Shown here piece after piece: positions 11,192-46,264 of a stretch of 64,000 nucleotides of DNA. The notes beneath the pieces were generated by a model. It worked only from the letters and a program-made list of their open reading frames with translations, was not told the origin of the DNA and made no database searches. The position numbers and the translations under genes were made by a program. Source of the DNA: Paraburkholderia sp. D15 (GTDB taxonomy: Bacteria; Pseudomonadota; Gammaproteobacteria; Burkholderiales; Burkholderiaceae); contig NZ_CP110396.1 in assembly GCF_029910215.1 (NCBI RefSeq), forward strand, positions 2,790,001 to 2,854,000, in the 5' to 3' direction. The stretch's first letter is position 1; every line of letters starts with the position of its first letter.

Positions 11192-11434
11192 GTCGCGAGT
11201 ACACGCATCGCTGGGTGAAATCCAACCCACGGTGAGGCGATTGCATCCCACCGCGAACCGTGCCGAGCGCATCGCCGCGCAACCCGCGCCACCATGCATT
11301 GGCATCGATTTCAGCGCGACGACATCACCGCGCCGGACTGGGTGAATTCCCGCTCACCGCGCACGTTTCACACGCGGTCCATCGCTGCTGCGTCAGCCCC
11401 GCCCAGCAAGCGTCGCGCCATCCGGAGCGTGAAC

Positions 11435-11450
11435 TGGCACGAAGCTTGTA
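11435..11450 (+). promoter_or_regulatory. sigma-54 (-24/-12) promoter of the T6SS operon
   Basis: TGGCACGAAGCTTGTA matches the consensus TGGCACG-N4-TTGCA in all but one base (T for C in the -12 GC). The spacing between the GG and the -12 element is correct. Transcription would begin near 11462, giving a leader of about 70 bases before the tssB start. A sigma-54 activator gene lies 750 bases upstream. Confidence 0.7.
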
Positions 11451-11533
11451 TGAAGAATGGCCGGGAGAAGCATCCGATCAGGCTGAGTCTGGTTCGCCTT
11501 CTCTTTCTTAACCGATCGAAGCGAGGCGAGCAC

Positions 11534-14185
11534 ATGGGGTTTAGAGAGGACGACAACGTCCAGCAGAAGTTGACGCGCGTGCGGCCACCGCGCGTCAAGA
11601 TCACCTACGAGGTGGAGACCGGCGGGGCATTGCGGGCGACGCAGTTGCCGTTCATCGTCGGCATCTTCGCGAATCTTTCCGGCGACTCGGGCAGCGCGGA
11701 TCTTCCGTTTCCGTACAAGCAGCGCGAGTTCATCGAGATCGATCGCGACAATATTTACGACATCATGAAAGCGTCGGGCGCGAGCGTCGATCTGTCGAAG
11801 GTCGCGTTGCCGCCGACGACACCCGGCGGCCAGCCCGAACACGATCCGACTCAGTTGACGTTCGAGACGCTCGACGATTTCAAGCCGATGTCGGTGGTCA
11901 AGAAGGTGGGGCGTCTTGCCGCCCACAACGCCGCGCGTAGCAACGTGCGGATGCTGCAGGCACGCGCCGAAATCGACGACGCGCTCGCCGCGGCGCTCGA
12001 CCGGACCTGTGCGCCGGATCAGGGCGCGCTGCGCAAGGCGATCGCGGACAAATACGCGGCCGCAGCGACGGCGGGCGCGAATGGTACCAACGGCGGCAAC
12101 GCTTCGGGCGGAACGAACGGCGCGAATGCCGCCAATGGTGCCAACGGCGCCAACGGTGCAAATGGCGCCAACGGTGCGAACGCATCGAACGGCGCCAATG
12201 CATCGAACGGCGCAAGCGCTGCCGCCGGCAACGCCAAGCCGACCCCGCAGGACAACTGGCGCAAGCTCGGCGTGACGCCGGCCGCATCGGACGCGCTGCT
12301 GCCCGCCGCGCAACTGACCGCGGACAACGTGCTGGAGCAACTGCTCGGCCATCTGGTGACGACGCAACCGCCAGCGGCACCGGCGAACGGCGCGGGCACG
12401 CAGAACGGCAACGCGCCGCAAAACGGCGGCGGGGCACAGGGCGCACCGCAAGCCAATCCGCAAGCGCCCGCGAAGGATGCGAACGGCGGCGCGCAGGGCG
12501 AAGCGGCCGGCGCTCAAGGCGCGGACCAGGGCGGCGATAAAGGCCAAGGCGCACAGGAAGCACAAGGCGCACAGGGAGCCCAAGGCGCACCCGACAACGC
12601 CGCGCAAGCCGCACCGAACAATGCCCAAGCGCAAGCGGCAGCAGCGGGCACACCCGCACCGGCCGCAAACGCGAGCGGCAACGGCAATGCAGCCAACGCC
12701 AACAACGCCCAACCCACCCCCGCCGACTGGTCCGACGCCCTCGTGCTGCTCGGCTACTTCAACGACGTGGTCCTCACCACGATCGACGCGCAGCAGCCGC
12801 AGCCGGTCCCGACGATGCATGCCGCGCAGTGGATCGACGCCGCCGTCGTCACGATCGACGCGACGCTCAGCGCGAATATCGACGCGATCCTGCACGCCGA
12901 CTCGTTCCAGACGCTCGAATCGACGTGGCGCAGCATCGCGAATCTGGTGGCCAACACCGAGACCGGCACGATGCTGAAGCTGAAGGTCTTCAACACGCGC
13001 CGCGAGGAGCTGTCGAACGATCTGGAGAACGCGGTCGAGTTCGACCAGAGCCTGATGTTCAAGCTCACCTACGAAGCCGAATACGGCACGCTCGGCGGCA
13101 ATCCGTTCAGCGTGCTGGTGATGGACTATCCGATCGGCAACAGCTTCCTCGACATCGAGTTCCTCAGCAAGGTCACCCAGGTCGCGGCCGCCGCGCACGC
13201 GCCGCTGATCGCGGGCGCGGCGCCTTCGATGTTCGGCCTCGACGACTACTCGCAACTCGGCAAGCCGCGCGATCTCGCGAAGATCTTCGAAGGCAACGAC
13301 TGGATCTCGTTCAACGAATTCCGTCAAACCGAGGACTCGCGTTACGCGACGCTGGTGCTGCCGCGTCTGCTGCTGCGCCTGCCGTACGACTACACGGTCT
13401 CGCCGGTCGGCTTCAACTACATCGAAGATATTTCGAGCGACGGCACGCGCCCCAGCACCGATCCGAACAACCTGAACGCGGATCAGAACGGCGTGAAGTT
13501 CGCCGATATCGATTCGGACAGCAAGTTCCTGTGGGGCAATGCGGCCTACGCACTCGCGCAGCGCATCACCAATGCCTTCGCGCTGTATCAGTGGACCGCG
13601 GCGATTCGCGGCGAAGAGGGCGGCGGTCTGGTGGACGGTCTGCCGCTGTACCAGTACCGCACCGATCGCGGCTCGCAGGTGCTGTTCTGCCCGACCGAGG
13701 TGGCGATCACCGACCGTCGCGAGAAGGAACTGAGCGACCTCGGCTTCATCGCGCTATGTCACAGCAAGGGTTCGTCGAACGCGGTGTTCTTCGGCGGCCA
13801 GACGGTCAATCTGCCGATCACGTATCTGTCCGACGAAGCGAACGCGAACGCGCAATTGTCCGCGCGTCTGCCGTACATGCTCGCGGCGTCGCGTTTCGCG
13901 CATTACGTGAAGGTGCTGGTGCGCAAGAAGGTGGGCGGCTTCCAGAATCGCGCGACGCTCGAAGCGTATCTGAATACGTGGATCGCGCAGTACGTGCTGC
14001 TCGACGACAACGCGACTCAGGAAGTCAAGGCCAGCTATCCGCTGCGCTCGGCGAGCATCGTGGTGACGGAAGAACCGGGCTCGCCCGGTTCGTACAAAGC
14101 CACCATGTTCCTCAAGCCGCACTTCCAGCTCGAAGAACTGACCACCTCGATCCGGCTCGTGGCCGACCTGCCCAAGGCGGGCTGA
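11534..14185 (+). CDS. tssBC: TssB-TssC fusion: T6SS contractile sheath in one polypeptide
   Basis: Both sheath subunits (VipA and VipB) are encoded in one 883-residue frame. Residues 1 to about 168 are TssB: KLTRVRPPRVKITYEVETGG, FIVGIFANLSG, and the C-terminal helix LQARAEIDDALAAAL. Residues about 170-393 are a low-complexity linker of Gly, Ala, Asn, Gln and Pro. It includes Gly-Ala-Asn triplets (about 196-227), Gly-Ala-Gln triplets and one short ordered-looking patch (NWRKLGVTPAASDALLPAAQ). Residues about 394-883 are TssC: ADSFQTLESTWRSIANLV near 455, then DQSLMFKLTYEAEYGTLGG, ending in ATMFLKPHFQLEELTTSIRL. The start at 11534 was chosen because TssB homology begins there and GAGG precedes it. 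Normally tssB and tssC are separate genes. It heads the operon under the sigma-54 element. Confidence 0.93.
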   Translation: MGFREDDNVQQKLTRVRPPRVKITYEVETGGALRATQLPFIVGIFANLSGDSGSADLPFPYKQREFIEIDRDNIYDIMKASGASVDLSKVALPPTTPGGQPEHDPTQLTFETLDDFKPMSVVKKVGRLAAHNAARSNVRMLQARAEIDDALAAALDRTCAPDQGALRKAIADKYAAAATAGANGTNGGNASGGTNGANAANGANGANGANGANGANASNGANASNGASAAAGNAKPTPQDNWRKLGVTPAASDALLPAAQLTADNVLEQLLGHLVTTQPPAAPANGAGTQNGNAPQNGGGAQGAPQANPQAPAKDANGGAQGEAAGAQGADQGGDKGQGAQEAQGAQGAQGAPDNAAQAAPNNAQAQAAAAGTPAPAANASGNGNAANANNAQPTPADWSDALVLLGYFNDVVLTTIDAQQPQPVPTMHAAQWIDAAVVTIDATLSANIDAILHADSFQTLESTWRSIANLVANTETGTMLKLKVFNTRREELSNDLENAVEFDQSLMFKLTYEAEYGTLGGNPFSVLVMDYPIGNSFLDIEFLSKVTQVAAAAHAPLIAGAAPSMFGLDDYSQLGKPRDLAKIFEGNDWISFNEFRQTEDSRYATLVLPRLLLRLPYDYTVSPVGFNYIEDISSDGTRPSTDPNNLNADQNGVKFADIDSDSKFLWGNAAYALAQRITNAFALYQWTAAIRGEEGGGLVDGLPLYQYRTDRGSQVLFCPTEVAITDRREKELSDLGFIALCHSKGSSNAVFFGGQTVNLPITYLSDEANANAQLSARLPYMLAASRFAHYVKVLVRKKVGGFQNRATLEAYLNTWIAQYVLLDDNATQEVKASYPLRSASIVVTEEPGSPGSYKATMFLKPHFQLEELTTSIRLVADLPKAG

Positions 14186-14221: not shown

Positions 14222-14788
14222 ATGGACCTCATACTGTTGCAGCCGGGCGACCCGGACGTATTCGGCGGCCCGAACAACTGGGACAACGGCGGCAGCCTGA
14301 TCGACAACACCTGGCGCGATCAGGTGCTGGCGCTCGGCGAATGTATCGAACTCGTGTCCGTGCATCAGGGCATGAAACAGCAGATCACCACCGACGTCAG
14401 CAACTCCGCGCGGACCTCGGGCCGGCCGATCATCACCGAGTTCACCTGCACCAAATACGTCGACAAGACCTCGGTGAAGTTCTACGAGTACTGTCTGCGC
14501 GCGCAGCCGCTCGGCAAGGGCAAGGGGCAGCCCACCAAGCTGTACATCGCGCGCAACTCGGGCGATCTGACCGGCAACATCATGACGTTCCAGCTGCGCG
14601 ACGCGATCATCAGCGAGATCCAGTTCCAGTCGCATCCGGACGACATGCCGACCGAGCAGTTCAAGCTCAACTTCACGGAAATCCTCTGGACGTACACCGT
14701 GCAGCGCGCGGATACGCAACCGGCGGGTAACCTCGCGACCGGCTGGTCGATCGCGCGCAACCGTCCGATCGGTCAGTTCACCGACTGA
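14222..14788 (+). CDS. hcp: Hcp, T6SS inner-tube protein
   Basis: Hcp/TssD forms the hexameric inner tube pushed out by the sheath. The 188-residue protein is slightly longer than the usual 160-170. The conserved sequence SGRPIITEFTCTKYVDKTS and the following KFYEYCLRAQPL match the Hcp1 family. DAIISEIQFQSH and LNFTEILWTYTVQ form the later strands. The N-terminus (DLILLQPGDPDVFGGPNNWD) is longer than in classical Hcp. AAGGAACAACG before the ATG is a good ribosome-binding site. It lies 36 bases after tssBC and 61 bases before tssE, so it is a core operon gene rather than an orphan effector-linked Hcp. Confidence 0.93.
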   Translation: MDLILLQPGDPDVFGGPNNWDNGGSLIDNTWRDQVLALGECIELVSVHQGMKQQITTDVSNSARTSGRPIITEFTCTKYVDKTSVKFYEYCLRAQPLGKGKGQPTKLYIARNSGDLTGNIMTFQLRDAIISEIQFQSHPDDMPTEQFKLNFTEILWTYTVQRADTQPAGNLATGWSIARNRPIGQFTD

Positions 14789-14849: not shown

Positions 14850-15260
14850 ATGCGCTATCTGTTCGAACGCCTCGCCGCCGCGACGCCCACCTCGGCGGCG
14901 CAAGCCCGGCCCGTGGATCTGCGCGAGGCCGTGGCCGAGCAGATCCAGCGCATGGTCGCGACGCGTCCGCGCAGCGCGGGCGACGCGAGCGATCTGCTCG
15001 GTTTCGGCATGCTCAACGTGGTGGACGTGTCGGCTAACGGCGGCGTGGGTCTCACGCGCTACGCCGCGCGTCTGAAGCGGATGATCGAGCGCTTCGAGCC
15101 GCGTCTGGCGAACGTCGAGGTGACGCTCGTGCCGGACGCGAATCCGCTGATGCCGAACCGGCTGCGCGTGTCGGGCGTATTGCGCAGCGCCGAGGCGCTG
15201 CCGTTTCGCGTGCTGCTCGACGCCGCCACCGGCGCCGCGCTGGAGGTGATGGTGCGATGA
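14850..15260 (+). CDS. tssE: TssE, T6SS baseplate gp25-like protein
   Basis: TssE is the gp25-like wedge component that seeds sheath assembly. The 136-residue length fits. DLREAVAEQIQRMVATRPRS corresponds to the family's helix that precedes the conserved LLNTRxG-like segment, here DASDLLGFGMLNVVD. LKRMIERFEPRLANVEVTLV is the characteristic EPRL motif. The stop overlaps the tssF start (ATGA), indicating translational coupling. Confidence 0.88.
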   Translation: MRYLFERLAAATPTSAAQARPVDLREAVAEQIQRMVATRPRSAGDASDLLGFGMLNVVDVSANGGVGLTRYAARLKRMIERFEPRLANVEVTLVPDANPLMPNRLRVSGVLRSAEALPFRVLLDAATGAALEVMVR

Positions 15261-17101
15261 AGCTCGCCGATACCACGCTGGCCGATTACTTCACCGCGGA
15301 ACTCGCGGCGCTGCGCGGCGACGCCGCGATCTTCTCGCGCAATTTTCCGGCGGCGGCGGGCGCGCTCGGCTTGAGCCAGGGCCGTTCGACCGATCCGCAG
15401 GTGGAGTTGCTGGTGCAGTCGTTCGCGTTTCTCGCGGGACGTCTGCGCTATCAGCTCGATCTCGGTCAGGCTTCGCTGCCCAATGCGCTGACCGATTATC
15501 TGTATCCGCATCTGTCGGCGCCGTTGCCTTCGATGACGATCGCCGCGCTCGACGTCAAACCCGACGGCGCGAATTTCGCCAAGCGTCAGGTGCTCGAACG
15601 CAAACGCCTGATGACCGCGCAAGGTCACGATGTGCGCGGCAATCCGGTCGCGTGCCGCTTCATGACCTGCTACGACACGCCGCTCGTGCCGCTGAAGATC
15701 GACTCGATCCAGCTCGCCGCGCCGAGCAGCCGCTCGCTCGATCCGGCCGACTGGAAGAACCCGAATCTGCGCTCGCTGCTGAGCGTGACCCTGCATCGCA
15801 CGGGCACCGGCACGCTGAGCGAATTGCAGCTCGGCACGCTGCGTTTCTACCTGAACTGCGCGCCGAACGATCTGCGCACGTTCTACGAAATGCTCGCGCT
15901 CGGTCTCGCGAAGATCGTCGCGCAGCCGCTCGATGGCGACGGCAAGCCGGCCGGCGCGCGTCAGGAACTGCCGGCGAGCGCGCTGACGTGGCGCGGCTTC
16001 GCGCAGGACGAAGCGATGCTGCAGGTCAGCGCGAACACGCATCCCGGCTACCGGCTGTTGCAGGAATACTTCGCGTTCCCCGAGAAATTCCTGTTCTTCG
16101 ATGTCGAGGGACTGTCGTTCACGAGCGGCGCGACTTCGTTCGAACTGATGTTCGTCGGCACGCAGACGCTCGATGTGGTGGCGACGCTGCCGTCCGATCT
16201 GCTGCGGCTGAACTGCGTGCCGCTGATCAACCTGTACCCGCAGCGGCTCGAACCGATCGCGCTCGATCACACGCGCTACGAGTATCGCCTGCAAGGCAAC
16301 GCGGGCGATCATCGTTACTGCGAGGTGTACGCGCTGACCGAGCTGTACTCGACGCGTCCCGGCGATGCGCCGCGTCCGCTCGCGCCGTATTTCTCGATGG
16401 ACGATTTCCAGCGCCTGCAGGGCCAGGACTATTTCTACATGACGCGCCGCGAAGAGGCGCAACTGGGCGACGTGCAGGGCACCGAGTTCTACGTGTCGTT
16501 TCTCGACGCCACCTTCAACATCGCGAAGCCCGCCGACGAAACGCTCGGCGGCTCGGCGCTCTGCACCAACCGCAATCTGCCGGAGCAGTTGCGGCAGAAC
16601 GATCCGCTGCGTCTGGAAGGCGCCGGGCCGGTCGCGGGCGCGATCATCGTCAGTCCGGTGACGCCGCATCAGACGCCGCGCCTGATCGGCGCGCGGCCGT
16701 GGGCGCTCGCCGCGCAGCTCGCGTTGAACCGGCTGTCGCTCGCCGACGGCCCGCACGCGCTGGCGGCGCTGAAGGACCTGCTCAAGCAGCACGTCGGCAT
16801 GCGCGGCGAGAGCGGCTTCAAACAGATCGACGGCATTCGCGACATGCGCACCGCGCGCGTGATGGTGCGCCGGGGCGACGACGCGTGGCGCGGTTTCGTC
16901 GACGGGCTGCGGGTCGATCTGTGGCTCGATCGCGCGAGTTTCGCGGAAGGCAGCGTGATTCTGTTCGGTGAAGTATTGCGGCATTTCTTCGCGCTGTATG
17001 GCGCGGTCAACGCCGGGGTCGCGCTGCGGATCAGCGTCAACGATATCAAGGGAATTCTGCGCGAATGGCCCCAACTCGTTGGCCTCCAGCCGGTTCTGTA
17101 G
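15257..17101 (+). CDS. tssF: TssF, T6SS baseplate wedge protein
   Basis: TssF (VasA/ImpG), the large baseplate wedge subunit that works with TssG and TssK, 614 residues and normal length. The N-terminus DYFTAELAALRGDAAIFSRN is typical, followed by DPQVELLVQSFAFLAGRLRY and the invariant-looking LTDYLYPHLSAPLPSM. The region VVATLPSDLLRLNCVPLINL and a C-terminal LRHFFALYGAVNAG are also family features. It starts inside the tssE stop and overlaps tssG by 37 bases. Confidence 0.93.
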   Translation: MKLADTTLADYFTAELAALRGDAAIFSRNFPAAAGALGLSQGRSTDPQVELLVQSFAFLAGRLRYQLDLGQASLPNALTDYLYPHLSAPLPSMTIAALDVKPDGANFAKRQVLERKRLMTAQGHDVRGNPVACRFMTCYDTPLVPLKIDSIQLAAPSSRSLDPADWKNPNLRSLLSVTLHRTGTGTLSELQLGTLRFYLNCAPNDLRTFYEMLALGLAKIVAQPLDGDGKPAGARQELPASALTWRGFAQDEAMLQVSANTHPGYRLLQEYFAFPEKFLFFDVEGLSFTSGATSFELMFVGTQTLDVVATLPSDLLRLNCVPLINLYPQRLEPIALDHTRYEYRLQGNAGDHRYCEVYALTELYSTRPGDAPRPLAPYFSMDDFQRLQGQDYFYMTRREEAQLGDVQGTEFYVSFLDATFNIAKPADETLGGSALCTNRNLPEQLRQNDPLRLEGAGPVAGAIIVSPVTPHQTPRLIGARPWALAAQLALNRLSLADGPHALAALKDLLKQHVGMRGESGFKQIDGIRDMRTARVMVRRGDDAWRGFVDGLRVDLWLDRASFAEGSVILFGEVLRHFFALYGAVNAGVALRISVNDIKGILREWPQLVGLQPVL

Positions 17102-18579
17102 AAGACCTGCTGTTCAATCAGCCCGAACGGATCGACGTGTTCCAGCTCGTGCGGCTGCTGCGCGTGCGCGATTCGTCGCGCCCGGCGGTCAGCCGGCGTC
17201 TGAAGGCGCTGCTGACCTGGCGGCTGATGAGCGGCGACGCCGACACGCGCAGCTTCGCCAGTTTCGCGCGCCGCCTGCGCTTCGCCGCGGATCTGTCGCC
17301 GGCGTTTCCGGGCGTCGAGGTGACGGCGTGCCGCCGGCTCGAACCGTCCGATCTGCTCGACACGCCGGGCGGCAAGGCGGCGATGCGGCGCATGCAGGAG
17401 GTGGCGGAATACGACAGGGTGACCGGCGCGGCGCCTGATTCCGCCGCTGCCGTTTCGGCGCAAGCTGGTGCTTCGGGTAGCCCGGCCGACACGCCACGCG
17501 CCGACCCGTTCAACGACGCGCGCGCCGGCGCGTTGAACCAGGCGCTGCGCAGCGTCGTGAAGGGCGAGATCGTCGAGATCCGCACGCCGAACTACAGCGT
17601 GGCCAGCGAGCTTGGGCCGCTGCCGGAGCCGTTCCTCGAATGGGTGCGCGACCGTCTGCGCGACGACGACGCGACCTTCGCCGCATTCCTCGACGTGTTC
17701 AATCACCGCATCAACGTATTGCGGCATCAACTGAAAGCGACCCAGGACGTGGCGCTCGATTACGCGCTGCCGCAGGACACGTTGCAGGCGGATTTTCTCG
17801 CGAGCCTCGCGGGCATGGCCTCGCTCGACGCGGAAGCGCAGATCGTGCTGCCGCGCCGGGCCTGGCTCGGCATGACCGCGACGCTGGCCGATCCACGCCG
17901 CAGCGCGACCGCCGCGCTGACCGCGCTGCGTCAATACCTCGGCATTCCCGGCACGCAGCTCGAACAGCTGGTCGGCGACTGGCGGCCGCTGTCCGCCGCG
18001 CAATGGTCGGGACTCGGCCGGCAGGGCACGCTTGGCGGCGATGCGGTGCTCGGCACGCAGGTGTGGGACGAGATGGCCGGCGTGCGCCTCGTGGTGCCGA
18101 ACGTCGACTACGACCGTCTGTGCTGCCTGTTGCCGCCGCCATGGCAACCGCCGGAGCTGCAGGAAGCGCTGGCGCGGCACGAACGGGAGCGAGCCCATCG
18201 CCACGAGAGCGCCGCCGAAGCCGCCGCGGACGCCGACATTCCGCTGAACGGCTACAGCGGTCTCGCGGCGATGGTGCGTTTGCTGTTCGACCGGCGCGTC
18301 GATTGCACGGTCGAGATGACCACGCCCGCCGCGTATCTGCCGGCGTCGCTGCTGAGCGCGACGCCCGGCACCGGCGTCACCGCGCCGATGGTTCCGCTGA
18401 GCGCCGCCGCATTGCCGGCCGGCGTGCGCTATCGCGGTCTGCGGCTTGGCCAGACGGCCTGGCTCGCGGTGCGCTCCGAGGCGTTCACGCAACCTGCCGT
18501 GGACGACGATGCCGCGCAGCCCGAGCTTCGCACGGTCAGCTATGCGATCGCGGGCGATCCGCCAGGAGCGCTGCAATGA
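17065..18579 (+). CDS. tssG: TssG, T6SS baseplate wedge protein
   Basis: TssG (VasB/ImpH), 504 residues, longer than the usual 330-370. The N-terminal ERIDVFQLVRLLRVRD and SFARRLRFAADLSPAFPGVE match the family. LPEPFLEWVRDRLRDDDATF and AAFLDVFNHRINVLRHQLK are the conserved core segment. LGTQVWDEMAGVRLVV appears in the second half. The extra length comes from an Ala/Pro-rich insert around residues 120-155 and a longer C-terminal part. The start codon lies 37 bases inside tssF; no good later start exists before the conserved domain. Confidence 0.9.
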   Translation: MAPTRWPPAGSVEDLLFNQPERIDVFQLVRLLRVRDSSRPAVSRRLKALLTWRLMSGDADTRSFASFARRLRFAADLSPAFPGVEVTACRRLEPSDLLDTPGGKAAMRRMQEVAEYDRVTGAAPDSAAAVSAQAGASGSPADTPRADPFNDARAGALNQALRSVVKGEIVEIRTPNYSVASELGPLPEPFLEWVRDRLRDDDATFAAFLDVFNHRINVLRHQLKATQDVALDYALPQDTLQADFLASLAGMASLDAEAQIVLPRRAWLGMTATLADPRRSATAALTALRQYLGIPGTQLEQLVGDWRPLSAAQWSGLGRQGTLGGDAVLGTQVWDEMAGVRLVVPNVDYDRLCCLLPPPWQPPELQEALARHERERAHRHESAAEAAADADIPLNGYSGLAAMVRLLFDRRVDCTVEMTTPAAYLPASLLSATPGTGVTAPMVPLSAAALPAGVRYRGLRLGQTAWLAVRSEAFTQPAVDDDAAQPELRTVSYAIAGDPPGALQ

Positions 18580-21266
18580 GCACGCCTGGCACGATCGGCA
18601 ATATGGCCAACATCGGCATCACGCGCATCGAGAAGATCGACGGCCCCGCGCCGGCGGTGTTCCTGCACGTCGCGATCTTTTTGCCGGGCGGCTACCTCAT
18701 CGGCGCGGAGCGTTTTCGCGCGACTAAAATCAGCGGCCAGGAACAGGTCTCGCAGCCGTTCGAGTTCCAGCTCGAACTACGCGCCGACACGGTCACCGGC
18801 AACGCGCCGCCGGTGCGTTTCGAGCAGTTGATCGGCCGGCCGGTGACCTTCGGGATCGACCGGCCGGACTTCCGGCTGCCCAACGACAGCACGCTCGACG
18901 CGCTCGCCGGCGCGTCCAACGATCGCTTCGCCGCGGCGCTTGGCGGCGGCGCGGCGGACCCGACGCTGTCGCTGTTCAACGGTATCGTCACGTCGTTCTC
19001 GATGAGCGAGCCGGGCGTCTACAAGGCCAGCGTCAAGCCGGCGCTGTGGAAGCTCACGCTCACCAACCGCTACCGGATGCTGGTGCAGCAGAGCGTCGCG
19101 CAGGCGATCGAAACCTTGATGCGCGAGCACGGCGTGACGTTCTCGCTGAACGGCATCGCCGGCACGCACAACCTTGCGCAGACGCGCGTGCAGGACTGGA
19201 TGCAGGCCGGCGAATCGGACTACGCGCTGTTGCAGCGTCTGATGGCCAAGGCGCAGATTCATTATTTCTTCACGCATACCGGCGACAGCCACACGGTGGT
19301 GTTTTCCAACCGCCCGCAATATCAGCCAATTCCGTTCGACCGGCCGCTGCGCTACACGTCGACCGACACGAGCGCGCTCGGCGTCTCGCAGGCCGACGTG
19401 GTGTCGCAATACACGTACGAACAGTCGCTCGTGACGAGCGGCGTGGAATGCGTGCTCGCGCGCCAGCAGGAATCGTGGGACGTGGACGCGATTCCGACGT
19501 TCCAGACGTTCGCGGCCACGCCGGCCGATTCGGGTGACCTGCCGTTCGTGCAGTACCGTCAGTTCCAGTACGGCGTGAGCGACTGGCAGGCGCGCGAAAC
19601 GCTCGGCCTGTCCGAAGCGTCGCGGCGCGGCTCCGCCGAAAAGTTCTCCGGCGCGAGCACCTGCGCGCAGATGCGCGTGGGCCACAGCTTCCTGCTGCAG
19701 ATGCCGGCCGGCGGCGCGGCCGGTCAAACCATCCAGCCGTCGCTCGACGAACAGCGTTTCGTGCTCACCCAGGTCTCGCACGACGCGAGCCTCGACGGCG
19801 ACTATCACAACAGCTTCAGCGCGACCGATCCGTCGAGCCTGATCACGCCGTTCTCGATCGAACAGACGCAGCAGGGCTCGCTGCTCGCCACGGTGGTGGA
19901 CGCGGACGGCAGCACCGCGCCGAAAGACTGGCGCTATTACACCAGGCAGAACTTCGAGATGGTCACGAGCAATCAGACCGATCGCGATGCGAGTCCCGCG
20001 ACGCTGAATGCGAAAGGCGTCTACGTGAATTTCGCCACGGATCGCGCGCTGAATGCGGCCGCGCAACCGGTGTGGGTGAAGCTCGCCGGGCACATGCAGA
20101 CGGTGCCGGAAGTCGGCGTGACGGTGGTGGTGGCGCGCGCGCAGGACGAGTCGGAGTTGCCGGAGATCCAGAGCATCGTGCATGCGAACGGCTCGCACGT
20201 GGTGACGCCGTCGGGCTGGACCGCGAATACGTCAGTGGGCAACAACTATTCGACGTCGTACAGCGACAGCAAGAGCATCCGCTTCGGCGCGACCTCGGAC
20301 GTGAGCGACAGCACGCTCGACACGGCGATCGATCAGGTCACGAGCGCCTACGCGAGCGGCCAGTATCGCGACGCCAGCTATTCGCAGGGCGGCAGCTACA
20401 GCTATGCGGTCTCCGAGAACAAGGAGAAGGGACTGCTGAGCCGGTCGTATTCGTACGGCAGCAGCTTCGGCCATAGCTGGGCGTTGCAGCAGCAGAATTT
20501 CTCGGCGGTGGGCAGCACGTACAACCAGAGCGTGGTCGGCAAGTCGAGCCCGGATGCCGCGCAGCCGTCGCCGTCGCCCGCGCCGGACGCGGTCAGCGTC
20601 AGCGTGAACGACGTGTTCGGCGACACCTACGGCACGTCGTCGAACTTCGGCAACGTGAAGAACTACAGCACGGTCACGGGCGATTCGTTGTCCGAGAGCA
20701 CCGTGACGGGCGTCAGCACGTCCAAATCGACCATCACCGAAAGCCGTTCGACCTCGGTCGTCGGCAAGTCGACCAACAGCAGCACGACCGGCGTGTCGGA
20801 AAACAGCAGTATCACCGGCACGTCGAGCGGCACCAACGTGATCGGCTCGTCGACCGAACACTCGACGATCGGCAGCTCGCACAGCAATTCGCTGACCGGC
20901 ACCCAGAACAGCACGAGCGTGACCGGCAGCGCGGATGTGACGAACATCACGGGCATGTCGTCGTCGACCTCGATGACCGGCGTGCAGACTTCGATGAACA
21001 TGGTCGGCGTGTCGAACTCGATCGACATGCAGGGCGCGGTCTCGTCGGTCAGCATGGTCGGCGCGTCGAATCGCGTGAACATGTCCGGCGTGACGTCGGA
21101 CGTGACGCTCGCGGGCGTGCAGAGCCAGGTGACGATCTCGTCGGAGAGCCACACCATTTCGCTGGCCGGTCCCGGCTTGCGGATCTCGGAAGAAGCCGCC
21201 GTGCCCGAGATCAAGATGTCCAATGCGACGATCACGATCGTCGGCGTGATCCAGATCTACCTGTGA
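18576..21266 (+). CDS. vgrG: VgrG spike with a long nonapeptide-repeat C-terminus
   Basis: VgrG/TssI, the trimeric spike that caps the Hcp tube, 896 residues. The gp27-like part begins near residue 30 (GERF-like GAERFRATKISGQEQVSQPF) and includes FNGIVTSFSMSEPGVYKASV and QAGESDYALLQRLMAKAQIH, a classical VgrG motif. The gp5-like OB region follows (VWVKLAGHMQTVPEVGVTVV) and a Ser/Tyr-rich segment of about 150 residues. Residues 698-870 are 19 tandem repeats, two of ten and 17 of nine residues, consensus S/N-x-T/V/M-G-x-S-x-x-x, predicted to form an extended triple beta-helix needle. It ends in a hydrophobic strand (ATITIVGVIQIYL). No enzymatic extension is visible. The start overlaps the tssG stop (ATGA). 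Confidence 0.93.
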   Translation: MSTPGTIGNMANIGITRIEKIDGPAPAVFLHVAIFLPGGYLIGAERFRATKISGQEQVSQPFEFQLELRADTVTGNAPPVRFEQLIGRPVTFGIDRPDFRLPNDSTLDALAGASNDRFAAALGGGAADPTLSLFNGIVTSFSMSEPGVYKASVKPALWKLTLTNRYRMLVQQSVAQAIETLMREHGVTFSLNGIAGTHNLAQTRVQDWMQAGESDYALLQRLMAKAQIHYFFTHTGDSHTVVFSNRPQYQPIPFDRPLRYTSTDTSALGVSQADVVSQYTYEQSLVTSGVECVLARQQESWDVDAIPTFQTFAATPADSGDLPFVQYRQFQYGVSDWQARETLGLSEASRRGSAEKFSGASTCAQMRVGHSFLLQMPAGGAAGQTIQPSLDEQRFVLTQVSHDASLDGDYHNSFSATDPSSLITPFSIEQTQQGSLLATVVDADGSTAPKDWRYYTRQNFEMVTSNQTDRDASPATLNAKGVYVNFATDRALNAAAQPVWVKLAGHMQTVPEVGVTVVVARAQDESELPEIQSIVHANGSHVVTPSGWTANTSVGNNYSTSYSDSKSIRFGATSDVSDSTLDTAIDQVTSAYASGQYRDASYSQGGSYSYAVSENKEKGLLSRSYSYGSSFGHSWALQQQNFSAVGSTYNQSVVGKSSPDAAQPSPSPAPDAVSVSVNDVFGDTYGTSSNFGNVKNYSTVTGDSLSESTVTGVSTSKSTITESRSTSVVGKSTNSSTTGVSENSSITGTSSGTNVIGSSTEHSTIGSSHSNSLTGTQNSTSVTGSADVTNITGMSSSTSMTGVQTSMNMVGVSNSIDMQGAVSSVSMVGASNRVNMSGVTSDVTLAGVQSQVTISSESHTISLAGPGLRISEEAAVPEIKMSNATITIVGVIQIYL
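20667..21185 (+). repeat. nineteen coding repeats (27-30 bp) in vgrG
   Basis: Repeat units such as SITGTSSGT, NVIGSSTEH, SLTGTQNST, SVTGSADVT and NMVGVSNSI follow without gaps. Gly is at position 4 in almost every unit. The DNA copies are diverged, so the array is old and held by protein-level selection rather than a recent expansion. Confidence 0.85.
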
Positions 21267-21273
21267 GCGCCGC

Positions 21274-23922
21274 ATGAAAATCGTCAAACCGTTGACCCTC
21301 GGCACGCTGACCCGCTCGTATCTGATCGGCGGAGAACGGCGTTTCGTCGTCTCGGCGCTGGGCTTTTTTCCGCTCGGCGTGCCGGCGCAGCGCTTCGCCG
21401 CCGAGAACGAGCAGTGGCCCGCCGTGTTGAAGACGCTGGCCGCGCAAGGCGTCACGCAGCCGCTCGACGAAGTGCTGCCGAAGTCGCGCGCCGAGCTGCT
21501 GGTGTGCGGCAGCGCGTATGCGCCCGGCGGCAAGGCGGTCGAGCGGATGCAGGTGAATCTGCAGGCAGCGGGTATCGACAAAACGCTCGACGTGATCGGC
21601 GAGCGCGCGTGGCGCTACGACCCGTGGCTGCGCATCGACCAGCCCAAGCCGTTCGTCACCATGCCGCTTGCGTACACGCATGCGTTCGGCGGCGCGCATC
21701 ATCCGGACAATCCGGTCGGCTGCGGCTATGCGCGCAACCGGCTGGCCGCGCTGGTCGGCGTCAACAGTCTGCCGATGCCCAACGTCGAGTTGCCCGGCAC
21801 GCCGGTGCGGCGTCACTGGGTGCGCTATGCGCCGGCCGGCTTCGGTCCGCTCGCGTTCGACTGGCAGACGCGTTCGCGGCACGCGGGGCGCTACGGCGCG
21901 AAGTGGCTGGACAGGGAAGCGCCGGGTTTTTCGTCGAGCGCGGCGCCGGCGTTGTTTCAGCGCGCACCGGTCGACCAATGGCTCGACGGTTATCTGCAAG
22001 GCGGCGAAGCGTATCGATTGAGCGGCATGCATCCGCAGCGGGCGGCGATCGAAGGGCAGGTGCCGCCGTTCGCCGCGCGGGCGTTCATTCAACGCAGCGG
22101 CACGGCGGCGCTCGAAGAGGTCGCGCTGAAGTTCGATACCGTGTGGTTCTTCCCCGATCTGCTGACCGGCGTGGCGATGTATCACGGCGAGGTCGCGCAC
22201 CAGCATTCGCTCGCTTTCGACATCGATGCGGTGATGGTGGGTTACGAGCATCGCGACCGGCCGCGCTCGTTCGCGCACTATGCCGATGTGTTCGCGCGGC
22301 GCACCGATCCGGTGGAGGCGGCCGCGCATCTGTTCAACGAATCGGACCTGGCCGCCGATTACGACGAAGCGACGCGTGTCGTGCGCGCGGCGGCGAGCGC
22401 GATGCGGGCCGAGCAGGCGGAGGCCGCGCAGCAGGCGATGGTCGATGCGCAGCTTGCGGAATTTCATGCGGTCACCGGGATGCCGGTGAAGGAGGCGGCC
22501 GCTACCGCCGCGCCCGCCATGCCGACGCGCTTGCCGCGACTCGACCGCGTCGCCGTCGCGGAATCGGATTTCGATCTCGCGCCGATTTTCGAAGGCGCGA
22601 AGACCATGATCGCCGAGGCGCGTGCCTATGCGGACAGCTTGCGCGCCGCGTTGCCGGAACTGCCGAAGCCCGCCGCGCCCGACCCGGCCGTGCGCCGTGA
22701 AAAAGCCTGGGCGCGCGTGAGCGTCGCCGCCGTCGATCTCGTGCCGCTCGATCCGTCGGCGAGTCTCGTGCCGCCGGACCGGGCCGCGAAAGCGCCTGCC
22801 GCAGGTACGGCCTTGTCCGCCACCGGCGTCCCGCAACTCGACGCCGCGCTCGCCGCCCAGCCCGCGCAAGCGCGCGCCGCGCGCCGCGCGAGCCTGCGCT
22901 ACACCGACCCCGACGGTCCGCTGCCCGCCGACCTCGCACACTGGCTCGGCCGGCAGGTCGAGCAATGGCATCGCGCCGGCGTGCTGCTGGCGGGCCGCGA
23001 TCTGGCCGGCCTCGACCTCTCGGGTCTCGATCTGAGCGGCGCCGATCTGCGCGAAGTCCAGCTGGAAAACGCCGATCTGCGCAACACGTCGTTCAACGGC
23101 GCGCGTCTCGATCGCGCCGTGCTGAGCGGCGCGCAACTCGACGGCGCCGATTTCACCGGCGCCACGCTCGCCGATGCGAACCTGTGCCACAGCAGCGGTT
23201 CGGCGATCGGTTTCGCGGGCGCCGATCTCACGCGCGCGTGGGCGATCGACGCGCAATGGCCGCAAGCCGATCTGAGCGACGCCCGTCTCGATCATTGCCT
23301 CGCCTCCGGCATCGGCCTGGCGGGCGCACGGCTCGCGCGCGCAACGGCCACGCAAGCGGTGCTGATCAACGCGCTCGCGCCGTCGAGCGACTGGCAGGCC
23401 GCGCAACTCGCGGCCACCGTGCTGATGCGCGCGGACCTGAGCGGCGCATCGTTCGCGGACGCGACGCTGCGCAAGGCGGTGCTGATGGACGCGACACTCG
23501 CGGGTGCATCGTTCGAACGCGCGACGCTGGTGGACGTGGCCGCGGGCGGCGCCGACGCCGACTGGTCGAACGTGCGCGCCGCCGGTCTGCGTGCCGAACA
23601 TTGCAGCTGGCAGGGCGCCGCGCTGCGCGGCAGCGACTGGCGCGGCGCGACGCTGGCCGCGTGCGATCTGGGCCGTACCGATCTATCGCAGGCACAACTG
23701 GCGGACGGCCAGTTCAGCGGCTGTCTGTTCACCGCCGCGACGCTCGCGGGCGCGCGTGCCGAACGCGCGAATCTGTTCCGCGCGGTATGCCGCGAGGTGA
23801 ACTTCAGCGACGCGTCGCTGATCGGCGCGAGCCTTTATCAAGCCGACACCAGCGACGCGCAGTTCACCCGCGCCGATCTGCGGGACGTGAAGCTGGAAGC
23901 CGGCAGGAGGGCGATCGCATGA
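21274..23922 (+). CDS. DUF2169 T6SS adaptor fused to pentapeptide repeats
   Basis: An 882-residue protein. Residues 1 to about 320 are a DUF2169 domain, known from T6SS loci as a chaperone/adaptor that helps load effectors onto VgrG or PAAR-like tips. Key segments are GERRFVVSALGFFPLG, the RAWRYDPWLRIDQPKPFVTM region and AYTHAFGGAHHPDNPVGCGY. A helical linker covers about 330-570. From about 574 to the end are pentapeptide repeats of the A(D/N)Lxx type (GLDLSGLDLSGADLREVQL), forming a right-handed quadrilateral beta-helix. It begins 7 bases after vgrG, consistent with tip assembly. The fusion of adaptor and pentapeptide domains probably provides a rigid scaffold. The role is inferred from context. 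Confidence 0.88.
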   Translation: MKIVKPLTLGTLTRSYLIGGERRFVVSALGFFPLGVPAQRFAAENEQWPAVLKTLAAQGVTQPLDEVLPKSRAELLVCGSAYAPGGKAVERMQVNLQAAGIDKTLDVIGERAWRYDPWLRIDQPKPFVTMPLAYTHAFGGAHHPDNPVGCGYARNRLAALVGVNSLPMPNVELPGTPVRRHWVRYAPAGFGPLAFDWQTRSRHAGRYGAKWLDREAPGFSSSAAPALFQRAPVDQWLDGYLQGGEAYRLSGMHPQRAAIEGQVPPFAARAFIQRSGTAALEEVALKFDTVWFFPDLLTGVAMYHGEVAHQHSLAFDIDAVMVGYEHRDRPRSFAHYADVFARRTDPVEAAAHLFNESDLAADYDEATRVVRAAASAMRAEQAEAAQQAMVDAQLAEFHAVTGMPVKEAAATAAPAMPTRLPRLDRVAVAESDFDLAPIFEGAKTMIAEARAYADSLRAALPELPKPAAPDPAVRREKAWARVSVAAVDLVPLDPSASLVPPDRAAKAPAAGTALSATGVPQLDAALAAQPAQARAARRASLRYTDPDGPLPADLAHWLGRQVEQWHRAGVLLAGRDLAGLDLSGLDLSGADLREVQLENADLRNTSFNGARLDRAVLSGAQLDGADFTGATLADANLCHSSGSAIGFAGADLTRAWAIDAQWPQADLSDARLDHCLASGIGLAGARLARATATQAVLINALAPSSDWQAAQLAATVLMRADLSGASFADATLRKAVLMDATLAGASFERATLVDVAAGGADADWSNVRAAGLRAEHCSWQGAALRGSDWRGATLAACDLGRTDLSQAQLADGQFSGCLFTAATLAGARAERANLFRAVCREVNFSDASLIGASLYQADTSDAQFTRADLRDVKLEAGRRAIA

Positions 23923-25037
23923 GCGCGCTGCCGTCGATCACCGCCGCACCCGCTACGCCCGCCACGGCCGCGGCCTTCGCCGTCATCGCGAAACAGCGCG
24001 CGCTCGGCCGTCCCGTCACCGAACTCGATCTCGCGGGCGCGGATCTGCGCGGCGTCGATTGGTCCGGTCTGGTGTTCCAGAAGGTGGGTCTCGTGGGGGC
24101 CGACCTGCGCGGCGCCGATCTGAGCGCGGCGCGTTTCATGTACTGCGACCTGTCCGGCGCGCGGCTCGCCGGCGCGACGCTGACGCGCGCCGCGCTGATC
24201 GGCTGCACTTGCGTGGGCCTCGACATGGCGGGCGCCGACGCGCAATTCCTGACGCTGATGCAATGCGCCGCCGCCGGCTCCGACTGGCGCGGTGCGACGC
24301 TGCAACAGTCGACGCTGTCCGGGACCGTGCTCGCCGGCGCGCGCTTCGGCGGCGCGACCTTGCTGCGCAGCGTGCTGTTCGGTTGCCAGGTGGGCGGCGC
24401 GGATTTCAGCGCCACGCGTCTCGATCAGGCGGCGCTCGCCTCCACCGATCTGCGCGCGGCCACCTTGACCGGCCTCGACGCCGACACCTCGGTGCTGATG
24501 GACTGCAATTTCGCGGGCCTCGCGCTGCCGGCGATCAAGCTGGTGCGCTGCACGCTGCAAGGCTGCGATTTCAGCGACGCGGATCTGCGCGACGCCACGC
24601 TGACCGAGTCGAACTGCCGTCAGGCGATCTTCGCGCGCACGCGGCTCGGCGGAGTGCGCGCCGAACGCGCGCTGCTGCTTGCCGCGCAACTGAGCGACCT
24701 CGATCTGTCGCGCACCATCTTGACCGGCGCGATGTTCGCCGACGCGCAACTCACGCGCGTGCGGCTCGACGGCGCGCACATCGAACAAACGGTATGGCAC
24801 CGGAGCCGTCTCGTCGACGTGAGCTTCGACGGCGCGCAGCTGTCGTACGCGCAGTTCGACCACGCACGCGGCACGCGGGTCTCGTTCGAACGCGCGCGGC
24901 TCGAACACGCGAGCCTGCACGATGCGGTGTTCGACGAGGCGTCGTTCGCCGGCGCGCGCACCTACCGGATGAAATCCACCGATACGGCGCTGCTCGACGC
25001 CGAGCGCCCCATGTTGCAACTGGAGACCCTTAGATGA
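23919..25037 (+). CDS. pentapeptide-repeat protein of the T6SS tip cassette
   Basis: A 372-residue protein made almost entirely of pentapeptide repeats from about residue 35 (LDLAGADLRGVDWSGLVFQ) to about 355 (FDEASFAGARTYRM). The periodic A-D/N-L-x-x pattern predicts a long right-handed beta-helix. It has no catalytic motif and no signal peptide, so it is cytosolic until secreted, if at all. Its start overlaps the preceding DUF2169-pentapeptide gene by four bases (ATGA) and its stop overlaps DUF3540. It may pair with the pentapeptide half of the preceding protein in delivering cargo. Confidence 0.88.
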   Translation: MSALPSITAAPATPATAAAFAVIAKQRALGRPVTELDLAGADLRGVDWSGLVFQKVGLVGADLRGADLSAARFMYCDLSGARLAGATLTRAALIGCTCVGLDMAGADAQFLTLMQCAAAGSDWRGATLQQSTLSGTVLAGARFGGATLLRSVLFGCQVGGADFSATRLDQAALASTDLRAATLTGLDADTSVLMDCNFAGLALPAIKLVRCTLQGCDFSDADLRDATLTESNCRQAIFARTRLGGVRAERALLLAAQLSDLDLSRTILTGAMFADAQLTRVRLDGAHIEQTVWHRSRLVDVSFDGAQLSYAQFDHARGTRVSFERARLEHASLHDAVFDEASFAGARTYRMKSTDTALLDAERPMLQLETLR

Positions 25038-25603
25038 ACGACGAGTTGCTGAAACACCGGCACGCGGCGCCGCTCGCGCCGCATCTGCAGGAAGCCTCGG
25101 TCGCGGTCGAACTCGACGGCGGACGCTTTCTGCTCGACGACGGGCGCGTCGCCTCGACCGCGCTGACCTGCCTGATCGAGCCGCGCGTCGGCGATGCGGT
25201 GCTGCTGGTGGAGCGTGCCGATACGAGCCGTTACATCGTGCATATTCTGGCGCGCAACGCCGATGCCGGCGCGGCTCACCACGACGCGACGCTCAGCGTG
25301 CCGGGCGTGCAGAAACTGACGATCGCCCAGGCGTCGATCGATATCGTCGCGACCGAGCGCGCCGCGCTGCGTTCGATGAAGCATGCGGACATCGTCGCCG
25401 CGACCGGCACGCTCAGCGTGAGCGCGAACGATCTGTTCCGCAGCGTCGCGCAGAGCGTGGTGGACGCGTTCAAGGATTACGTGGGCCACGCCGAACACTA
25501 TCTGCTCGACGTCGATCAACTGCTGCGCCAGCACGGCAAGCAGGTGATGGTGACGGCCGAGAAAGACGTCAAGGTCGACGCCGACCGCATTTCGATGGGT
25601 TGA
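25034..25603 (+). CDS. DUF3540 protein of the T6SS tip cassette
   Basis: A 189-residue protein matching DUF3540, a family found beside VgrG, DUF2169 and pentapeptide genes. The N-terminal half has short strands (FLLDDGRVASTALTCLIEPR, GDAVLLVERAD). The second half has a repetitive strand pattern (LTIAQASIDIVATERAALRS, HADIVAATGTLSVSANDLF) that resembles the stacked beta-helix of VgrG tails, followed by a helix (VAQSVVDAFKDYVGHAEHY) and a closing strand with MVTAEKDVKVDADRISMG. It may be a tip extension or a spike-like protein. The molecular function is not established. Confidence 0.8.
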   Translation: MNDELLKHRHAAPLAPHLQEASVAVELDGGRFLLDDGRVASTALTCLIEPRVGDAVLLVERADTSRYIVHILARNADAGAAHHDATLSVPGVQKLTIAQASIDIVATERAALRSMKHADIVAATGTLSVSANDLFRSVAQSVVDAFKDYVGHAEHYLLDVDQLLRQHGKQVMVTAEKDVKVDADRISMG

Positions 25604-25607: not shown

Positions 25608-25994
25608 ATGTTCGCCAATACCAACCTCGGCGTGCTCAATTTCGCGTTTCCGGACGTCTGCAAGTTGTTGCCGATTCCGATCCCGTTTCCGTTTCCGAAT
25701 TTCGCGCTGTCGTTCACGCACATTCCGTCGGTGTTCAACGTGATCTTCGGCGGCGGCCTCGCGGAAAACCTGATGACGCAAGGCACGATCAGCCTGGGCG
25801 ACATCTCGGCGGGCGGCGTGGTCTCGCAGATCGAGATGGGCCCGGACCGGCCGCTGCTCGGCAGCTTCAAGGTGATGGTCGGGGTGATGTTCGCGACCCG
25901 TCTGACCACCATGACGATGCAGAACGGCATGCCGCCGAACGCGGTCGGCATGTCGATCACGCCGGCGCAGTTTCGCGTGATCCTGCTGTCATGA
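25608..25994 (+). CDS. PAAR-like DUF4150 tip protein
   Basis: A 128-residue DUF4150/PAAR-like protein that would sharpen the VgrG spike. The family start is visible: a Pro-rich PIPIPFPFPNFALSFTHIPS, then a FGGGLAENLMTQGTISLGD segment with the Gly-Asp turn, and GPDRPLLGSFKVMVGVMFATR. It has no C-terminal toxin domain, so it is a bare tip. Any cargo must bind non-covalently, fitting the adjacent DUF2169 and pentapeptide adaptors. It lies five bases after DUF3540, and its stop overlaps the tssJ start. Confidence 0.83.
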   Translation: MFANTNLGVLNFAFPDVCKLLPIPIPFPFPNFALSFTHIPSVFNVIFGGGLAENLMTQGTISLGDISAGGVVSQIEMGPDRPLLGSFKVMVGVMFATRLTTMTMQNGMPPNAVGMSITPAQFRVILLS

Positions 25995-26461
25995 GTGGGC
26001 TGCCGTCACGTCGTTGCGTGCTTGCGCTGGTGTCCGGCTGCGCGCTGGCGCTGCTGGCCGCGTGCAGCTGGTTCGGTCCGACGAAGACCGCGCTGCGCGG
26101 CGTGACGGTTTTCGCGCAGAACGGCGCGAACAACGCGAGCGCGACCGCGCTCGACTTCGTGTTCGTGTACGACGCGACCAGCGCCGCATTGCTGCCGCGT
26201 ACCGGGCCGGACTGGTTCGCGCGCCGCGCGGCGCTGCTGCTGTCGCTCGGACCGAAGGTCGAGGCGGTGTCGGTGCAGTTGCCGCCGAACCAGAGCGCCG
26301 CGCCGGTGCCGCTGCCGGCGCGCTACAAGAAAGCGCTGGTGGTTTATTGCTATGTGAATTTCGCGGCGCCCGCGGGGCAGGGCGTTGCCGATCTGACGCA
26401 GTACAAGCGCGTGGCGATCACGCTAGGCCCCAACACCGTCACGTACGACGGCACGCAATGA
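25991..26461 (+). CDS. tssJ: TssJ, T6SS outer-membrane lipoprotein
   Basis: TssJ anchors the TssJLM membrane complex in the outer membrane. The 156-residue protein has a lipoprotein signal peptide (VLALVSGCALALLAAC) with the lipidated Cys at residue 25. The mature beta-sandwich includes TALRGVTVFAQNGANNASAT, ALDFVFVYDATSAAL and a final strand pattern VAITLGPNTVTYDGTQ. Sequence similarity to canonical TssJ is weak, as usual for this family. The lipobox and the position before tssK-tssL-tssM support the call. It starts four bases inside the DUF4150 stop. Confidence 0.82.
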   Translation: MSGLPSRRCVLALVSGCALALLAACSWFGPTKTALRGVTVFAQNGANNASATALDFVFVYDATSAALLPRTGPDWFARRAALLLSLGPKVEAVSVQLPPNQSAAPVPLPARYKKALVVYCYVNFAAPAGQGVADLTQYKRVAITLGPNTVTYDGTQ

Positions 26462-26522
26462 GCGTGCAGGTCGAGCCGTTTGCAATAAACACAGCCGCAG
26501 CACTTGCCGTATCGAGGACATG

Positions 26523-28133: not shown

Positions 28134-29058
28134 GCGCGAAGCGCTACGCACACGGCTGCCGCTCTACACCTACTTCTGCGATTTCTACGGGCAGCTGGTG
28201 GACATCAAGCGGGGGCTGGCGGCGTTGCCGGCGGGGCATCCGGCGCCGGTCGAGCTGACGGCGGCGGCGGTCCACGCACGTCTGGTCGAAAGTCTGCGCG
28301 AGCAGTACAGCAGCGTGCAGCGCGATTGCACGCCGGATCAGTTGCAAATCTATCGCGACGCGCAGTACGCGATGGCCGCGCTCGCCGACGAGCAGTTGCT
28401 GCTCGAAGTGCGCTGGGCCGGCTGCGGCGAATGGCTCGACCTGATGCTCGAAACCGCGCTGTTCGACACGCGTCATGCGGGGGTGCGCTTCTATCGCCTG
28501 ATCGACAGCCTGCTCGCGGTGGCGCAGCCGAGCCAGGCGCATGCGGAACTCGGACTGGTGCTGCTCGGTGCGCTCGAAGTGGGATTTCGCGGCGCGCTGC
28601 GCGGCGACAGCGAGGCGCCCGCGCTGGCCGCGCGTCGTGCCGATCTGGTCAAGTTCGTCACCGATGTGCGCGGCGACGACGCGGGTGGCCATGCATTCGA
28701 GCAGGCCTACGAACATACGATCGGTCCGCGCGAACCGGAGCCGGCGAGTTGCCGGCTCGCGCCGCTGTCGCCGTGGTTCAACGCGGCGCGCCTCGCGCTG
28801 GTCGCGTATCTGCTGGTGTCGGCGGCGATCTGGTTCATCGTGATGTTTCCCTTCGAGCGGCTGGTCGCCAACGATCCGGCCGCGCAGCGCGTGCGCGCGG
28901 AACAGAAGCTCGGCAATGCGGTGGCGGCCAACGACGCCGGTACGGCAACCGGACCGACACAGACGTCGGGCGCGGTGAGCGTCGCGCCGGTGACCAGCGC
29001 CGACTCGCTGACGGTAAAACCCGCGTCTAAACCGGCGCCTCGGGGAGATGTGTTGTGA
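28120..29058 (+). CDS. tssL: TssL (DotU-like) inner-membrane protein, short form
   Basis: TssL (IcmH/DotU-like) is the cytosolic-domain partner of TssM, 312 residues. The cytosolic helical domain contains LPLYTYFCDFYGQLVDIKRG, a DAQYAMAALADEQLLLEVRW segment matching the DotU family core, and FYRLIDSLLAVA. A single transmembrane helix near residues 223-245 (LALVAYLLVSAAIWFIVMF) is followed by a short periplasmic Ala/Thr-rich tail. No OmpA-type peptidoglycan-binding domain is present. The SPOR-domain protein encoded at 35481-36065 could supply wall binding. It starts 14 bases inside tssK and overlaps tssM. Confidence 0.9.
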   Translation: MHTSEREALRTRLPLYTYFCDFYGQLVDIKRGLAALPAGHPAPVELTAAAVHARLVESLREQYSSVQRDCTPDQLQIYRDAQYAMAALADEQLLLEVRWAGCGEWLDLMLETALFDTRHAGVRFYRLIDSLLAVAQPSQAHAELGLVLLGALEVGFRGALRGDSEAPALAARRADLVKFVTDVRGDDAGGHAFEQAYEHTIGPREPEPASCRLAPLSPWFNAARLALVAYLLVSAAIWFIVMFPFERLVANDPAAQRVRAEQKLGNAVAANDAGTATGPTQTSGAVSVAPVTSADSLTVKPASKPAPRGDVL

Positions 29059-41694: not shown

Positions 41695-41731
41695 CAGGTT
41701 CTCATGGTTTGCGCGGTTCCGCCATGGAAGA

Positions 41732-46256: not shown

Positions 46257-46264
46257 CGGCGTGC

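Follow-up and report, generated by a model that had tools for sequence, protein, structure and literature searches.

TssB and TssC sheath proteins encoded in a single open frame in type VI secretion loci of Paraburkholderia sp. D15 and other bacteria

A 64,000-nucleotide stretch of the Paraburkholderia sp. D15 genome (positions 2790001-2854000 of contig C2, NZ_CP110396.1; hereinafter, the window) carries a type VI secretion system (T6SS) cluster in which both sheath proteins, TssB and TssC, are encoded by one gene of 883 codons, located at 11534..14185 on the plus strand. In all, the evidence makes it likely that the product is a real sheath protomer, with TssB and TssC in one polypeptide, of a T6SS lineage that lacks a ClpV of its own, and that the sheath is recycled in the manner proposed below. 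The source genome (G000) comprises 8.3 Mb in three contigs, and the nearest named relatives at the fused locus are Paraburkholderia and Caballeronia species. The T6SS sheath is generally described as consisting of two separate proteins and as being recycled by ClpV via the N-terminus of TssC (PMC4239648). The window protein differs from this canonical TssB/TssC (VipA/VipB) pair in being a single chain, without a ClpV in its cluster and without the LLDxI-type motif, so named after LLDEII in PMC4239648.

The fused gene and its domains

At the sequence level, the window carries a single open frame in place of separate tssB and tssC genes. The longest version of this frame in the open-frame listing spans 11294-14185 (963 codons). 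The ATG at 11534, which gives 883 codons ending with the stop at 14183-14185, is the likely start, preferred because close orthologs open with the same block (MxF...QQKLTRVRPPRV) and because a Shine-Dalgarno-like GAGG (11523..11526, plus strand) is read 7 bases upstream. The TssB (VipA) domain occupies residues 14-158 (11573..12007; Pfam T6SS_VipA, PF05591, E 1.5e-23, 83.8 bits against a cut-off of 24), and the TssC domains occupy residues 435-879 (12836..14170), with VipB (PF05943) at 435-758 (E 3.1e-108) and VipB_2 (PF18945) at 768-879 (E 7.2e-43). Among the NCBIfam models, the fused protein scores 553.9 bits with TssC (TIGR03355, cut-off 271.5) and 85.6 bits with TssB (TIGR03358), the latter under the cut-off of 97.25, which may explain why the source names mostly give the large subunit alone; annotation by the best family alone can miss TssB. 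An alignment of 84 fused proteins contains 103 invariant columns, and the structural model of the fused protein matches solved T6SS sheath chains.

The two parts are joined by a linker (residues 184-396) composed of two low-complexity stretches, predicted to be disordered, that flank a conserved helical island. The first stretch (GAN-type; residues 184-234, 12083..12235, plus strand) consists of Gly, Ala, Asn and Gln to 88%, with a predicted local distance difference test score (pLDDT) below 50 at residues 186-230, and the second (GAQ-type; residues 285-391, 12386..12706, plus strand) to 82%, with pLDDT mostly below 50 at residues 290-387. Each residue is encoded by mixed codons, so that neither stretch is one pure DNA repeat. 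The island (residues 235-284, 12236..12385, plus strand; mean pLDDT 95-98 over residues 241-280) is recognizable in the alignment of Paraburkholderia and Caballeronia orthologs, and the adjoining repeats vary in letters and length. The model is suggestive of a relationship between the helix at residues 266-274 of the island and the N-terminal helix of VipB, for which it may stand: structural alignments, the output of which consists of the first and last aligned residues only, start at model residue 265 and chain residue 17 for 5ojq and 5mxn. The remaining TssC chains align to the model only from residue 418 onward, which weakens this identification.

A sequence-only reading of this DNA had described TssB and TssC in one 883-codon frame, and the open frame, with three Pfam domains in one protein, bears this out. 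The low-complexity linker of about 220 residues in that reading is close to the observed length (213 residues), except that 50 of these residues (235-284) form the conserved island. The idea that such a linker is what makes the fusion had to be abandoned, given that relatives are fused without repeats: the close orthologs of P. humisilvae and P. solisilvae have almost no low-complexity linker, and the gap between the TssB and TssC cores in 129 fused proteins spans 9 to 420 residues, the distribution peaking near 50-63 and 201-211. Internal initiation, named in the same reading as a potential source of a separate TssC, finds no convincing site in the sequence. There is no in-frame ATG between codons 140 and 428; in-frame GTG codons occur at 12272, 12329, 12356, 12743 and 12767, and an ATG at 12815, and inspection of the sequence 5' of the five linker GTG codons showed no Shine-Dalgarno-like stretch.

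Distribution and origin of the fusion

A scan of species genomes yielded 26 loci, of which 21 contain the one-frame fusion and four have separate genes (L030, L039, L040 and L046); the remaining locus, L032, is cut by a contig end. A search with the TssC part scored 7,998 candidates, 7,911 of them under E 1e-100, and according to the Pfam column, 110 of the 120 best of these 7,911 relatives include TssB in the same protein. The ten without TssB among these 120 (P0007, P0008, P0038, P0039, P0060, P0061, P0063, P0077, P0090 and P0122) comprise two short fragments, the G140-like P0007 (see below) and seven proteins that, judging by their first residues, apparently start inside the linker. Among the fused proteins are ones named as Burkholderia, Trinickia, Chitinimonas, Chitiniphilus, Massilia, Lysobacter and Pseudothauera. 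In a BLAST test, TssB was detected in 129 of the 142 returned proteins with a TssC core; P0034 was scored as unfused in this test although its precomputed Pfam domains include TssB. This very divergent protein of 619 residues combines TssB with TssC N-terminal domains, lacks VipB_2, and is perhaps another kind of fused sheath-like protein.

A close ortholog (E 1e-170) was found in five of 144 genus genomes, the source included, and is in one frame in four of the five; at the family level, the fused gene was detected in 3 of 249 genomes (query P0126, E 1e-180). Ten of 369 class genomes passed a fused-alignment search (E 1e-220), two of them with a fusion uninterrupted by a stop (G000 and G763) and eight with a stop inside the match or with TssC alone. 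Fused genes below the E thresholds of these three surveys would go undetected. Judged from the sequence surveys, the fusion is rare in genome samples and yet is a lineage trait that is not peculiar to the source genome. A chance open frame, an assembly artefact and a unique accident were rejected as explanations, given that the fusion recurs in many genomes. Among the top-listed open-access papers, searched by title and abstract opening, no description of a natural TssB-TssC fusion was met, and an earlier one is possible; no experiment on this locus was met either. In the two-contig genome G140, the orthologous locus L060 (contig C2, near 4820350) encodes a TssC that is 95% identical, and its TssB is read in another frame; this break could reflect a sequencing error, natural slippage or decay. 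The L060 genome is possibly the same as that of P0007, the compared parts being in agreement.

Before tree construction, rows with at least 86% identity were dropped, reducing the set from 213 to 70; the unfused-labeled P0007, P0008 and L060 are among those absent from the tree. The fusion label takes four changes on the 70-row tree, in which two rows apparently starting inside the linker are included, and two changes on a quick 67-row tree with these two rows uncounted. In a 65-row tree, from which P0034, L040_2 and L046_2 (very long branches) and P0063 and P0077 (records apparently starting inside the linker) were omitted, the 49 fused rows other than P0033 make up one side of a branch with support 83/60, and this branch was recovered in 82% of 200 bootstrap trees. 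A single origin of the fused rows other than P0033 is weakly favored by these trees. P0033, a protein of 1,266 residues with a long extra N-terminal part preceding TssB and TssC, lies on a long branch inside an unfused group; either the fusion arose at least once more or this row is misplaced. One origin for all fusions was accordingly not retained, P0033 being placed among unfused rows.

ClpV and the LLDxI-type motif

No match to ClpV was found in the window, in the fetched flanks of the fused clusters of G243, G266, G217 and G763, or in the shorter flanks of 12 more fused loci. All eight searched Burkholderiaceae genomes with an intact fused sheath gene (G000, G168, G169, G170, G188, G217, G243 and G266) encode at least one ClpV elsewhere. 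In the source genome, a single ClpV exceeds the family cut-off, at C2:254771 next to another T6SS, and G177 likewise has one ClpV over the cut-off, which adjoins another TssC. In G763, no ClpV exceeds the cut-off, and the only match is ClpB-like (827 bits). The same holds for ClpV in all 17 genomes in which the only detected TssC locus is fused (0 of 17 over the cut-off); seven of these have a ClpB-like match (784-830 bits), and ten have neither. ClpV lies nearby in 19 of 22 unfused control loci from the source and related genomes, for which flanks of up to 20 kb were examined on either side; the exceptions are the locus on C1 of the source genome, the first locus of G030:C3, and G014:C1.

The LLDxI-type motif, defined here by the pattern [SATE]L[LF][DEQ][EQRSKDA][IV] with near misses such as GLLDQI not counted, was found in 39 of 59 unfused N-terminal rows vs none of 129 fused proteins and none of 32 rows from fused loci (window included); these rows are not independent events, as repeats of the same gene were left unmerged, and both the frame-shifted L060 and the cut L032 are counted among the 59. 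In a second T6SS of the source genome (L053/L054, G000:C1:3902000-3936000), TssB and TssC are separate, no ClpV lies within the fetched 34 kb, and TssC has no LLDxI-type motif. The Pseudoduganella locus L030 is likewise unfused and lacks the motif, and in both genomes the only ClpV over the cut-off adjoins another T6SS. These two systems, unfused and motif-less and without a ClpV of their own, would fit a loss of ClpV that preceded the fusion.

What the fusion is expected to cost is the free TssC N-terminus on which ClpV acts, and the gene and motif data are in keeping with a system that has given up using it. The sequence-only reading had suggested that contraction and disassembly may be altered, and the lack of ClpV near fused loci, together with the motif-less linkers, fits its view of a tethered TssC N-terminus. 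Its proposal to seek the same fusion in other genomes was rewarded by the loci and proteins counted above (21 of 26, 110 of 120 best-listed TssC relatives and 129 of 142). On fixation in a single lineage, which it raised as well, one branch holds 49 fused rows, with the weak support given above, P0033 stands apart, and L060 is frame-broken.

Comparison with known systems

The closest solved TssC is that of the Azotobacter vinelandii sheath 9n4v, with 52-53% identity to the window protein; the Azotobacter sheath is built from two chains, one of 493 and one of 187 residues, whereas the window protein is single. The sheaths of phages, R-pyocins and extracellular injection systems are one polypeptide, as the window protein is predicted to be, and alignments to one single-chain sheath start in the TssB part, at residue 6-39, and extend into TssC. 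The Francisella T6SS is not known to have a ClpV. Its sheath (type ii T6SS) is formed by two separate chains, IglA and IglB, unlike the fused chain of the window, which has 25% identity to the IglB chain 3j9o_B. Francisella is described as having a non-canonical T6SS that uses ClpB (PMC5481754). T6SS-1 of Azoarcus BH72, said to lack tssH, may be of the fused kind.

Published accounts of the T6SS denoted group_5 in Burkholderia glumae BGR1 list TssB, TssH and TssJ as absent and report that full virulence on rice depends on this system (PMC7368126, PMC8747328); PMC8747328 deals with its DUF2169 and pentapeptide accessory proteins. A fused TssB-TssC, the 726-residue P0126, is encoded by B. glumae and shares 59% identity with the window protein in TssC and 41% in TssB. 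Group_5 probably belongs to the fused-sheath kind, presumably with P0126 as its sheath gene; the P0126 locus was not reached among the 11 genomes searched. By this analogy, the TssB of group_5 would be not missing but fused, and fused-sheath systems would be able to work.

Gene neighborhood

The genes listed next, from Hcp to TssA, lie on the plus strand. The fused gene is followed by those for Hcp/TssD (14222..14788; PF05638), TssE (14850..15260) and TssF (15257..17101), both assigned by family matches, and a divergent TssG (17065..18579; PF06996, with TIGR03347 under the cut-off). The frame for VgrG (17640..21266; PF05954) overlaps that of TssG by 940 bases in a different reading frame (17065-21266 for the two together); the Phage_GPD match starts at residue 367, and the true start of VgrG is probably after TssG. 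Next come a DUF2169 and pentapeptide protein identified by Pfam (21274..23922; TvpAB-like), a pentapeptide-repeat protein frame (22965..25037; TvpB-like) that overlaps it and probably has a later true start, a DUF3540 protein (25034..25603; domain match, TvpC-like) and a PAAR-like protein (25608..25994; PF13665). As an accessory set, these genes are similar to the class III Tvp genes for spike assembly in PMC13373197, from which the naming is taken. A lipoprotein with an LAAC lipobox (25991..26461), a candidate divergent TssJ, directly precedes TssK (26520..28133), and domain matches identify the latter as well as TssM (IcmF; divergent, 29055..33539) and TssA (33552..35000); the TssL (DotU) frame (27934..29058) overlaps TssK, and its true start is probably later. 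The canonical core (hcp, tssE, F, G, vgrG, K, L, M and A) is thus present by Pfam scores over the cut-off; the NCBIfam scores of Hcp, TssG, VgrG, TssL and TssM are under the cut-off.

The lipobox protein matches no Pfam or NCBIfam family, TssJ included, and its sole PDB sequence match is weak, to an epoxide hydrolase (E 0.005). It is kept in G243, G266 and G217 and, more weakly, in G763 (26% identity); the TssJ reported as missing from B. glumae group_5 may be a divergent lipobox protein of this sort. In G266 and G217, gene content and order match the window over a stretch that begins with the fused gene and runs past TssK; G243 shares them up to the end of its contig after TssL, and G763 shares them with TssE and DUF3540 unmatched. 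Across the available flanks, the Paraburkholderia, Caballeronia and Oceanospirillaceae loci agree with the window, except that TssE is unmatched in Oceanospirillaceae. A gene order common to all fused loci was rejected for Holosporaceae. A paper on a Holosporales symbiont places T6SS genes at four or more sites in such families and names tssB and tssC, with no mention of a fusion in its matched passages (PMC8163844).

Downstream of the cluster, the open frame at 35484-36092 is probably not a gene. Also 3' of tssA, an open frame of 546 codons at 36138-37778 has no Pfam or NCBIfam match, and the region 40642-55113 appears to be an exopolysaccharide or O-antigen cluster (ATP-grasp, mannose-1-phosphate guanylyltransferase, Wzy, flippase and Wzc).

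A proposed mechanism and its alternatives

A sheath protomer of this kind would fold like the TssB-TssC heterodimer, with the domain order of single-chain phage and pyocin sheaths; the island at residues 235-284 would be the surviving old N-terminal helix of TssC, and the disordered stretches would hang outside the sheath as loops. With the TssC N-terminus tethered and the motif absent, contracted sheaths would not be dismantled by a dedicated ClpV; recycling would fall to ClpB, as in Francisella, or to another general unfoldase, or would hardly occur. The loss of ClpV may have come first and made a free TssC N-terminus dispensable. In V. cholerae, lengthening the N-terminal linker of VipA by two or more residues is reported to block contraction (PMC5797969); the fusion joins the C-terminus of TssB to the N-terminus of TssC and need not lengthen that linker, so that contraction need not be blocked.

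Several observations weigh against a ClpV-less, fused-sheath lineage. The support for a single origin is weak (83/60), and the Holosporaceae and rumen alphaproteobacterial loci, which within up to 10 kb match only the fused gene of the window, are not firmly joined to the main group in the first (70-row) tree, so that more than one origin of the fusion is possible. The frame break of L060 lies inside a long repeat-rich linker; either the fusion is not kept in every strain or the G140 sequence contains an error. The ClpV of the other T6SS in the source genome could act in trans, the 17 fused-only genomes appear to be metagenome-assembled genomes of completeness not given, and the absence of ClpV near 3 of 22 unfused loci indicates that its loss is not fusion-specific. 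Furthermore, L099 (G049), L101 (G030), L040 and L046 lack the motif by the pattern used although ClpV is nearby.

The fused sheath might be disassembled by a ClpV that belongs to another T6SS of the cell, leaving nothing basic changed. This is unlikely, if the most serious of the alternatives: the gene at C2:254771 and the ClpV genes elsewhere in all eight intact fused Burkholderiaceae genomes would make it feasible, whereas the 17 fused-only genomes and G763, with no ClpV over the cut-off, and the missing motif in all fused linkers tested argue against it. There is a still smaller chance that the usual two-chain sheath results, either from a cut in the linker or from additional synthesis of TssC by internal initiation. 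Long predicted-disordered stretches are generally protease-prone. The in-frame GTG codons and the ATG at 12815 are available for such a start, and database TssC records of P. solisilvae (P0008) and Burkholderia sp. 9120 (P0007) begin inside the linker. However, no Shine-Dalgarno-like stretch was seen before the candidate starts, the frame is held across very different linker lengths in 129 fused proteins, some relatives are fused by short linkers, and locus L022 of P. solisilvae retains the whole fused frame.

That the cluster is a decaying T6SS, in which the fusion and repeat growth are by-products of relaxed selection, seems highly improbable. The frame break in the G140 ortholog, the fast change of low-complexity stretches between species and the rarity of the close ortholog in the genus would fit such decay, but the core genes, Hcp through TssA, have open frames with matches to their families, the visible parts of the G243, G266, G217 and G763 clusters repeat the gene content and order of the window, and 103 columns are invariant over 84 fused proteins. 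The reported phenotype of B. glumae group_5 mutants points the same way, if group_5 is of the fused kind.

Implications

The fixed 1:1 TssB:TssC stoichiometry expected of a fusion would follow only if the chain stays whole. The fusion offers a simple account of B. glumae group_5, published as lacking TssB, and as a natural case it bears on why T6SS split the phage-type sheath chain and on how linkers affect contraction. A one-chain sheath without its own ClpV is a natural test case for whether recycling is essential. In a scenario that we put forward tentatively, with slightly less than even confidence, a T6SS lineage dropped ClpV recycling and then joined its sheath proteins in a phage-like manner; such systems would be single-shot or recycled by a general unfoldase, and might serve slow, perhaps host-directed, rather than rapid antibacterial use.

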